Of a stretch of DNA of 33,260 bases, positions 8,731-29,231 are shown one piece after another. The notes under the pieces were generated by a model. The model was not told where the DNA came from and ran no database searches. It saw nothing but the letters and a program-made list of their open reading frames with translations. The stretch comes from an uncultured Lachnospiraceae bacterium (GTDB lineage: Bacteria > Bacillota > Clostridia > Lachnospirales > Lachnospiraceae), in the NCBI GenBank assembly GCA_900314445.1, contig OMVA01000025.1:1-33260 (forward strand). The letters run 5' to 3'. The number at the start of each line of letters is the position of its first letter. Position 1 is the stretch's first letter. The position numbers and the translations under genes were made by a program.

Positions 8731-9918
8731 TTACTTATAGAAATGATATGCCTTTTCGAATAATGGAATGGCCTTTTCAACAAGCTCTGTAGGTACGCAG
8801 TAAGAAATTCTGAAATGTCCAGGGCAGTCGAAGGAGTCACCAGGAACGATGATAAGACCAAGTTCCTTGGCAGCCTTCCAGCAAAATTCATTTGCATCTT
8901 CGCATGGTGATTCTGGGAACATGTAGAATGTGCCCATTGGCTTAATGCACTTGTAACCAATCTTTGTCAGTGCATCATAAAGAAGGTTTGCATTTCTTTC
9001 ATAGATAGAAAGGTCTGAAGTTTCGTCCAGGCACTTTTCAACAGCGAACTGCATAAGAGCAGTTGGGCAGTTGTGACCTGTGAAACGAGAAACCTGACCC
9101 ATCATAGGAACCAGATAGTCAGCATCCTTTGCAGCAGGGTTAACAGCAGCATATCCAATACGCTCACCAGGAAGGGAGATGGACTTTGAGAAGCTGTAGC
9201 AGCAAATGGAATTGTCGTAGAACTTAGAAACGAATGGAGCATCAGCACCAGCGAATACAAGCTCACGATAAGGTTCATCAGTAATCAGAAAGATTTCGTG
9301 ACCGTATTCTTTCTGCTTCTTTGACATAATTTCAGCAAGACGAGTGATTGTCTCAGTTGTGTAAACAATACCAGATGGATTGTTAGGTGTGTTGATGAGA
9401 ACAGCGGCAACGGATGGATTCATCATTGCTTCGAACTTTTCGAAGTCAATCTGGAAAGCAGTTGTGTCTGCAGGAACAACTTCCAGTTTTGCACCAGCGC
9501 CTGTTACATATGGAATATATTCTGGGAAGTAAGGTGCAAATGTGATGATTGTTTCGCCTTCAGAAGCTACACAACGGATTGCATGAGCAAGTGCACCAGC
9601 AGCTCCAGATGTAGGGAAGACGTGCTTAGCTTCATAATTCATACCGAAACGACGGTTTAAAGAATCAGCAATAGCCTGCTTTGTAGAGTTCTGACCCAGT
9701 GTTGGGCTGTAACCATGGAGTGCAACAGGTTCTCTTTCCTGAACCAGTTTAATCAGTTCCTCGTTAAAGTCCTCTGGACATGGAACAGATGGGTTACCGA
9801 TTGAGAAATTAAAAACGCTGTCTGGACCTAATTCAGCAGCTCTTGCACGACTATAATCAAAGAACTTTCTGATGACAGATTCCTTGCCAGTCATATCCTT
9901 GTAGAATTGTGAAATCAT
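8731..9918 (-). CDS. PLP-dependent aminotransferase, class I/II fold
   Basis: Fold-type I aminotransferase of 395 aa. The Schiff-base lysine is K245 in SFSKS. Cofactor and substrate residues include NTPNNPSG (176-183), D214 and Y217 in TDEPY, and R253 in GERIGY. The sequence resembles aspartate aminotransferase-like enzymes of clostridia that are annotated only generally; the amino donor cannot be read from the sequence. GAGGAGG precedes the ATG at a good distance. It is the first gene of the minus-strand unit with malQ and plsC, and is divergently transcribed from tatD. Confidence 0.9.
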   Translation of the reverse strand: MISQFYKDMTGKESVIRKFFDYSRARAAELGPDSVFNFSIGNPSVPCPEDFNEELIKLVQEREPVALHGYSPTLGQNSTKQAIADSLNRRFGMNYEAKHVFPTSGAAGALAHAIRCVASEGETIITFAPYFPEYIPYVTGAGAKLEVVPADTTAFQIDFEKFEAMMNPSVAAVLINTPNNPSGIVYTTETITRLAEIMSKKQKEYGHEIFLITDEPYRELVFAGADAPFVSKFYDNSICCYSFSKSISLPGERIGYAAVNPAAKDADYLVPMMGQVSRFTGHNCPTALMQFAVEKCLDETSDLSIYERNANLLYDALTKIGYKCIKPMGTFYMFPESPCEDANEFCWKAAKELGLIIVPGDSFDCPGHFRISYCVPTELVEKAIPLFEKAYHFYK

Positions 9919-9941
9919 CGACGTGTCCTCCTCGTCTTTTA

Positions 9942-9970
9942 TTGTTTATAAATACTTTATCTGTTATGAT
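9942..9970 (+). promoter_or_regulatory. Promoter of tatD
   Basis: TTGTTT (9942-9947) and TATGAT (9965-9970) are separated by 17 bp. The predicted start, near 9977, falls inside the inverted repeat at 9970-9988. Confidence 0.55.
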
Positions 9971-9988
9971 ATGTGCCGAAGGCACATA
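9970..9988. promoter_or_regulatory. Perfect inverted repeat between divergent promoters, possible operator
   Basis: TATGTGCC (9970-9977), loop GAA, GGCACATA (9981-9988) is a perfect 8-bp inverted repeat. It lies between the -10 boxes of two divergent promoters and covers the expected tatD start site. It could be a repressor site on DNA or a hairpin at the start of either RNA. The position is seen; the role is inferred. Confidence 0.55.
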
Positions 9989-9995
9989 CGCACTA

Positions 9996-10024
9996 ATTAT
10001 AGAGAATTTAATAGGAAGTAGCAA
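9996..10024 (-). promoter_or_regulatory. Promoter of the aminotransferase-malQ-plsC unit
   Basis: On the minus strand TTGCTA (10019-10024) and TATAAT (9996-10001) are separated by exactly 17 bp. The transcript would start near 9989 and carry the inverted repeat at its 5' end. Confidence 0.7.
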
Positions 10025-10032
10025 GTAAACTT

Positions 10033-10827
10033 ATGAAAATATTCGATACCCATGTTCACTATGATGACCAGGCATTTGACCAGGATCGCGAGGCCGTAAT
10101 TACTGGGTTGAATGGGGAAAATGTTGCAAATATCACAAACATAGGATTTGATCTGGAATCTTCCCGAAGTACGGTGGAACTGACAAAGAAATATCCTTTT
10201 ATATATGGAGCGGTTGGCATTATCCCAGAACATGCCAATGAGGGCAATGAAGAAAACTTGGCGGAGATTGAAAAATTAGCTTCCGAAAATGAAAAAGTAT
10301 GTGCCATCGGAGAAATTGGTTTAGATTACCATTATGATGATGGCCCTTCCAAAGAAAAGCAGGCAGAAGTCTTCCTGGCTCAGATGGACATAGCAAGAAG
10401 ACTGGGACTGCCCATTGCCATTCATTCCCGGGACGCAGCGGAGGATACGCTGAATCTTATGAAGAAGGCCCATGCGGAGGAAATCGGCGGAGTTATGCAC
10501 TGTTATTCCTATTCCTGGGAGACAGCAGAGATTCTACTCAAAATGGGATTTTATTTTGGTATCGGTGGTGTGGTAACATTTAAGAATAGTAAGAAACTGA
10601 AAAGAGTCGTAGAAAATCTGCCAATCGGGAATATAGTTCTTGAGACAGATGGACCTTATCTTTCCCCTGATCCATTTCGAGGAAAGCGAAATGACTCCAG
10701 CCGCCTGAAATATGTGGTGGAGAAAATTGCGGAATTAAAGAACATGGATCCAGAAGAGGTGGCGCGCATTACATTTGCCAATGCGGTAAAGATGTATGGT
10801 CTGGAAGGCAGTCAATATCTTAGATAG
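10033..10827 (+). CDS. tatD: TatD family metal-dependent hydrolase (DNase)
   Basis: TatD proteins are TIM-barrel metal-dependent nucleases of the cytoplasm. Expected metal ligands are all present: H7 and H9 in FDTHVHY, E94 in GEIGLDYH, H131 in IHSRDA, H156 in MHCYS and D206 in ETDGPYLSP. At 264 aa the length is normal. The ribosome binding site is weak: AGGAAG lies about 14 nt before the ATG. In many Firmicutes tatD is followed by rnmV and rsmA; here rsmA follows after 64 nt with only a hairpin repeat in between. It is the first gene of the tatD-rsmA-tadA run. Confidence 0.93.
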   Translation: MKIFDTHVHYDDQAFDQDREAVITGLNGENVANITNIGFDLESSRSTVELTKKYPFIYGAVGIIPEHANEGNEENLAEIEKLASENEKVCAIGEIGLDYHYDDGPSKEKQAEVFLAQMDIARRLGLPIAIHSRDAAEDTLNLMKKAHAEEIGGVMHCYSYSWETAEILLKMGFYFGIGGVVTFKNSKKLKRVVENLPIGNIVLETDGPYLSPDPFRGKRNDSSRLKYVVEKIAELKNMDPEEVARITFANAVKMYGLEGSQYLR

Positions 10828-12555: not shown

Positions 12556-12823
12556 TCCACGCAGCTGGGGAGATAGCGGTGCCCTGTACCTGCAATCCGC
12601 TTTAGCAGGAGTGATGGCTGGCCTAGGATCGTTTTAGTTTGGGCTGCCCTTGGTAAGTGGCGTTGAGATTTGGGTCTTGCGCGACAGGAATCTGTGAACC
12701 GTGTCAGGTTGGGAACAAAGCAGCACTAAACAGAACCTCTCTGTGCGCCGCGAGGTTGCCTGGGTTGAGTCAACTGCTAAGGTAACGCTGAGCTAAGCTT
12801 TACGAAGCTAGCCGCGTGGTTTT
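12556..12823 (+). ncRNA. ffs: Signal recognition particle RNA, large bacterial type
   Basis: This RNA forms the core of the signal recognition particle with Ffh and targets membrane and secreted proteins. The ends pair (CCACGCAGCT at 12557-12566 with AGCCGCGTGG at 12810-12819). The Alu domain sequence GGTGCCCTGTACCTGCAATC near 12579 and the 3' portion TTGCCTGGGTTGAGTCAACT near 12765 match the Bacillus-type 6S-like SRP RNA of about 270 nt. The Ffh-binding helix has GTCAGG at 12703-12708 and the GGAA tetraloop at 12712-12715, with altered but still paired flanking bases. Ends are accurate to a few bases. It lies after tadA, a conserved arrangement in Firmicutes. Confidence 0.95.
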
Positions 12824-29003: not shown

Positions 29004-29231
29004 TGATACAAATGTAGTACAGTCTGGAATGCAACCATGCTTGCATGGAGAAGCATTTCGGACTGCACTACATGTAACAATATGAGCATGGAGAGAAATT
29101 TGAGAAAGCAAATTTCTCGGGAATGCGAATATTGTAGAATTTCGAGAACGTGCGAAGCACGTGGAGAAATTCGTATCATAAAATAATGATACAAATGTAG
29201 TACAGCCCGGAATGCGACCATGCTTGCATGG
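29001..29231. repeat. Cloverleaf-like inverted-repeat element with partial second copy
   Basis: From 29003 to 29179 the outer ends ATGATAC and GTATCAT pair. Inside are three successive hairpins: one pairing ATGTAGT-CAGTC-AATGC (from 29012) with GCATT-GACTG-ACTACAT (to about 29073), tipped by CCATGC-TT-GCATGG; one pairing ACAATAT with ATATTGT, holding a perfect 9-bp stem GAGAAATTT/AAATTTCTC; and one pairing GAATTTC with GAAATTC, holding ACGTGC-GAA-GCACGT. A 48-bp piece (29001-29048) is repeated at 29184-29231 with three differences. No T run follows, and no open frame fits. It occupies the recR-pfkA gap. Confidence 0.8.

Follow-up and report, generated by a model that had tools for sequence, protein, structure and literature searches.

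What is the role, if any, of the perfect inverted repeat found between the divergent genes for an aminotransferase (AT) and the TatD nuclease in an uncultured Lachnospiraceae bacterium? The repeat belongs to a stretch of DNA of 33,260 nucleotides (contig OMVA01000025.1), which is called the window here. Both AT and tatD are housekeeping genes of this bacterium, which comes from gut or rumen; they are read in opposite directions, and tatD is followed by rsmA. The region comprises the following features:

8731-9918, minus strand: AT, an aminotransferase of the NCBIfam PRK06836 type, 395 aa
9919-9989, minus strand: predicted leader of the AT mRNA, 71 nt, with a hairpin at nt 1-21 and the ribosome binding site AGGAGG at 9932-9927
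9942-9970, plus strand: putative tatD promoter, with -35 TTGTTT (9942-9947), a 17-bp spacer and -10 TATGAT (9965-9970); predicted start at about 9977
9970-9988: palindrome TATGTGCC-GAA-GGCACATA, corresponding to nt 2-20 of the predicted AT mRNA on the minus strand
9996-10024, minus strand: AT promoter, with -35 TTGCTA (10024-10019), a 17-bp spacer and -10 TATAAT (10001-9996); predicted start at about 9989
10033-10827, plus strand: tatD, encoding a TatD family nuclease, 264 aa

As a sequence feature the palindrome is real, with perfect arms of 8 bp and a spacer of 3 nt, just as the earlier note on this DNA had described it. It is the only place in the window that matches at up to three mismatches, against 0.09 expected. 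When the 114-bp intergenic stretch was shuffled preserving dinucleotides, an inverted repeat with arms of at least 8 and a loop of 0-8 arose in 47 of 3000 shuffles (about 1.6%), and one that also held at least 8 G+C in 9 of 3000 shuffles of the same type. Taken alone, the palindrome is moderately unlikely in comparison with shuffles of its own intergenic stretch. A known RNA family was ruled out by Rfam, which at gathering thresholds gave no match at the palindrome and only two matches in the window:

12557-12819, plus strand: large SRP RNA (RF01854)
29004-29178, plus strand: Clostridiales-1 RNA (RF01699)

Regarding the promoters, two with 17-bp spacers had been proposed, and both can be recognised. 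The AT promoter, TTGCTA-17-TATAAT, scores 10/12 against the consensus, and a promoter of this type is present at the corresponding place in relatives. The putative tatD promoter, TTGTTT-17-TATGAT, scores 8/12, under the threshold of the promoter scan, with TG directly before its -10, and the tatD promoters are consensus matches only; both start sites, AT at about 9989 and tatD at about 9977, are placed from the positions of the -10 boxes. The orientation had been misread: the two promoters were said to point away from one another. The genes do diverge, but with the -10 boxes on the inner side and the -35 boxes on the outer side the promoters face each other. A distance of 25 bp separates the two -10 boxes, the RNAs predicted from 9989 (AT) and 9977 (tatD) overlap by 13 nt (9977-9989), and RNA polymerase on one of the facing promoters should block the other. 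The palindrome lies between the -10 boxes, having base 9970 in common with that of tatD, and covers the tatD start, as proposed, when this start is taken at the predicted position 9977.

This geometry places the palindrome at the very beginning of the AT transcript. The AT RNA from about 9989 begins GUAUGUGCC-UUC-GGCACAUAU, whose predicted fold is a 9-bp stem from nt 1 with -11.1 kcal/mol, the stem thus beginning within the first nucleotides of the transcript on the predicted start only. Meanwhile, the predicted tatD RNA carries the right half of the palindrome only and cannot form the hairpin, because its predicted start is inside the palindrome. The proposal of a hairpin at the 5' ends of the RNAs consequently has support for the AT mRNA and not for that of tatD. 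In the leader fold predicted for AT, the ribosome binding site AGGAGG is also flanked by GACG and CGTC, which form a short weak stem (window 9919-9936, minus strand).

According to a review, mRNAs of B. subtilis can be stabilised by a hairpin located at their 5' end or close to it (PMC3997798), and the mechanism that we propose for AT is of this kind. If the AT promoter initiates at about 9989, as predicted, the palindrome would in the cell give the AT mRNA a hairpin right at its 5' terminus, with the ribosome binding site following some 35 nt downstream. This hairpin would hide the 5' end from the 5'-end-dependent decay that involves the pyrophosphohydrolase and RNase J-type enzymes, and the hidden end would give the AT mRNA a longer life in this organism. 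The aprE-type 5' stem-loops of Bacillus, as they are presented in the same review (PMC3997798), are likewise short stem-loops at the 5' end of a Bacillota mRNA, upstream of a strong ribosome binding site; the AT hairpin differs from them in gene and sequence, few relatives keep its sequence, and both its start and its structure are predicted. That the palindrome is a 5'-terminal hairpin of the AT mRNA, slowing 5'-end-dependent decay and lengthening mRNA life, is the leading reading, which we hold tentatively, at slightly less than an even chance; the role of such a hairpin would probably be a stabilising one. The basis for this reading is the sequence, its geometry relative to the -10, the predicted fold, its partial retention by two relatives and a modest genus-wide surplus of 5'-terminal hairpins, the last two of which are described below. 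Against it stand most of the relatives, which are without the palindrome, the missing genus-wide pairing peak at its offset, and the fact that a similar fold is expected from either strand of any DNA palindrome.

For the comparison among relatives, drawn from GTDB 220 together with fetched stretches, 63 distinct AT upstream regions were collected; the AT gene itself was present at E <= 1e-150 in 58 of the 61 genomes of the genus, a count that takes in the genome of the window. A divergent tatD lies within 400 bp in 39 of the 63 regions, or in 36 after removal of three near-copies of L023 (L104, L106 and L107), which were left out of the counts. Promoters of at least 9 points were found in these 36 regions for AT in 36 and for tatD in 31, against a shuffle mean of 12.9 each. 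Palindromes in the same homologous regions are at the chance level, with 16 against 13.7 for arms of at least 6 and 3 against 1.35 for arms of at least 8. In an ungapped comparison, none of the 35 relatives with a close divergent pair carries the palindrome within 4 mismatches, the best having 5. Absence from relatives with the same gene order had been named by the earlier note as the finding that would refute its view; it applies to most of the genus, but not cleanly to the sister species, where a core with 5-bp arms is kept.

The sister species (L066, genome G073) groups with the window species in both trees, with support of 97/94 for AT and 100/98 for tatD. It keeps ATGCC-AA-GGCAT, in which the right arm has precisely the window's distance to the AT -10, 15 bases. 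It differs from the window by a change in both members of one pair (G-C to A-T), by the loss of two outer pairs and by a spacer that lacks one base, as read from the sequences; the automatic alignment puts the gap at another place. The hairpin of its AT RNA is weak (-3.4 kcal/mol). Another species, L010 (genome G008), has GTGCC-TTG-AGCAC at exactly the window's offset from the AT -10, and its tatD is 596 bp away. Its AT RNA would form UGUGCU-CAA-GGCACA, with six pairs, including an inner U-G on the AT strand, and, like the window, a loop of three bases; since other species are closer to that of the window than L010 is, this likeness may be parallel. Neither L066 nor L010 has a recognisable tatD promoter beside the palindrome, the tatD promoter being elsewhere in both, which ties the element to AT rather than to the pair.

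The tests of offset, alignment and fold covered only those loci in which the AT -10 is exactly TATAAT and the promoter score passes, 44 of the 63 once the three near-copies had been taken out. For L004, L066 and L077 the automatic choice of the AT promoter was wrong by eye and was replaced by other anchors, and the species groups in the offset comparison were chosen by eye. Over the slid offsets there was no genus-wide pairing peak at the window's offset, and a dyad conserved throughout the genus at a fixed offset was rejected. Six other species score once 4 of 5 pairs close to the offset are taken as enough, which by a hand estimate is about the chance level. In L082, the start region of AT is surrounded on the upstream side of the gene by TAACTGTG and CACAGTTA, which face each other at a distance of 13 bp; judged by its sequence, this is another species-specific dyad at the AT promoter.

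A hairpin at the mRNA start can also be looked for whatever its sequence. With the window excluded, the AT RNAs of 43 relatives fold better than shuffles over their initial 22 nt, with z -2.7 at offset 0 and z -3.4 at offset 1, values to be read against a test of 24 combinations of strand and offset in related species, in which offset 16 of the complement reached z -2.9, nearly as large. Hairpins pairing within nt 1-4 number 10 at offset 0 and 13 at offset 1 in these relatives, compared to about 5 expected. On the AT strand the fold values are lower at the offsets on either side of these two, and at the same offsets 0 and 1 the complement strand is weaker (z -1.9 and -1.7). After removal of near relatives, which left 31, z was -2.5 and -2.8. 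There is thus a modest excess of 5'-terminal hairpins at the start of the AT mRNA in the genus. A replicate at the level of the family, with 6 usable loci of 29, was too small, and its best value was at offset -3.

The arrangement of the promoters also varies among the 36 regions. In nine of them a single ATTATAAT holds both -10 boxes, and either side has its -35 at a spacing of 17 bp:

AT/tatD intergenic regions with a shared symmetric -10: L013, L014, L016, L017, L021, L036, L096, L097 and L098

Facing promoters occur in 15 of the 36, the window included (8 with a gap of 0-40 bp and 7 with 41-120); the rest consist of 1 with partly overlapping -10 boxes, 5 with separate promoters, 4 in which no tatD promoter reaches 9 points, and 2 that were not anchorable. 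Bidirectional promoters with a shared symmetric -10 have been described for E. coli by Warman, Grainger and co-workers (PMC12825309), and are matched by the shared -10 of the nine relatives with the gene pair. The window is unlike them, with facing promoters whose -10 boxes stand apart by the distance given above. A narrow search, from which no absence is claimed, gave no description of the promoter of the tatD/AT pair among the papers listed. A broader proposal joins these observations to the hairpins: the AT mRNA would be under genus-wide selection for a hairpin at nt 1-4, whatever its sequence, at the same time as the tatD and AT promoters shift between a shared symmetric -10 and two overlapping facing promoters, so that hairpin and promoter geometry would arise anew time after time while the function persists. 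We regard this proposal as improbable.

The palindrome could act as DNA instead of RNA. A dimeric repressor bound to two half-sites would block AT and, in this species, tatD too, because the site covers both predicted starts. The perfect symmetry, the half-site centres spaced 11 bp apart, that is one helical turn, and the position over both starts are as in operators of dimeric repressors between divergent genes, and the palindromic core at a matching offset from the AT -10 in L066 and L010 is also in favour. Unlike such operators, the palindrome has no adjoining regulator gene and no second site was found, and its persistence tracks AT and not the pair. The genome holds one exact copy; at up to 3 mismatches there are 10 other places, not an unusual number against about 8 expected by a hand estimate for random sequence, and the 9 examined (C100, with 3 mismatches, was left out) comprise 8 in ORFs and 1 that is terminator-like. 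Moreover, all 5 other places with GTGCCNNNGGCAC are inside ORFs, 2 of them coinciding with places at up to 3 mismatches. The best other match in the genome, TATGTGCAAAATGCACATA in L052, looks like a terminator, as it is located 3' of a gene, extends to GGGTATGTGCAAAATGCACATACCC and is followed by a T-run. The search for the palindrome near other promoters, which had been suggested, thus gave no second promoter copy among the sites examined, and the operator of a regulon was dropped as the leading idea, although a repressor with a single site is invisible to such tests. Also against an operator, the spacer length is unequal between the sister species (2 versus 3), and the palindrome is not found in the remaining regions that retain both promoters, facing or shared. 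The earlier suggestion of a repressor acting on both promoters is weakened by the missing second copy among the sites examined and by L066 and L010, the two relatives with a palindrome there, where no recognisable tatD promoter adjoins it. Overall we consider the operator unlikely; an operator for AT is the main rival to the AT hairpin, and chance is the other.

Chance would mean a fortuitous or neutral palindrome in a fast-changing intergenic stretch, as expected from the chance level of palindromes in the 36 homologous regions, the flat profile of pairing at its offset and the roughly 1.6% of shuffles of the stretch that yield such a palindrome. Chance accounts less readily for a palindrome that starts exactly at nt 2 of the predicted AT RNA, for the core at a matching offset in the sister L066, with its paired change, and in L010, and for the modest surplus of hairpins that the genus shows at the 5' end (+1/+2). 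We find this explanation unlikely too, to about the same degree as the operator.

Similar sequences exist elsewhere in the genus. CATGTGCC-N3-GGCACATA is present in three other genomes (G042, G014 and G076), with seven copies in G042, and forms a hairpin repeat scattered in G042, an E. ruminantium-like genome, and in G076, and is possibly a small mobile element, judging by the sequences. The flanks at L061, L063 and L064 are partly alike and, by eye, unlike the window beyond the palindrome; the idea that the window's palindrome is a copy of this repeated element was rejected on these three flanks, that of G014 (L062) being left out.

The palindrome points to no new regulator or system; the part it most probably plays is a modest one, of a type already known, and it is most likely an ordinary feature, a small and weakly conserved hairpin at the mRNA start of one gene. 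If the reading as a 5'-terminal hairpin of the AT mRNA is right, this locus would offer a small, testable case of mRNA 5'-end protection in the Lachnospiraceae, and the tatD/AT pair would allow promoter geometry to be traced among related species, with a shared -10 at one end and facing promoters at the other.
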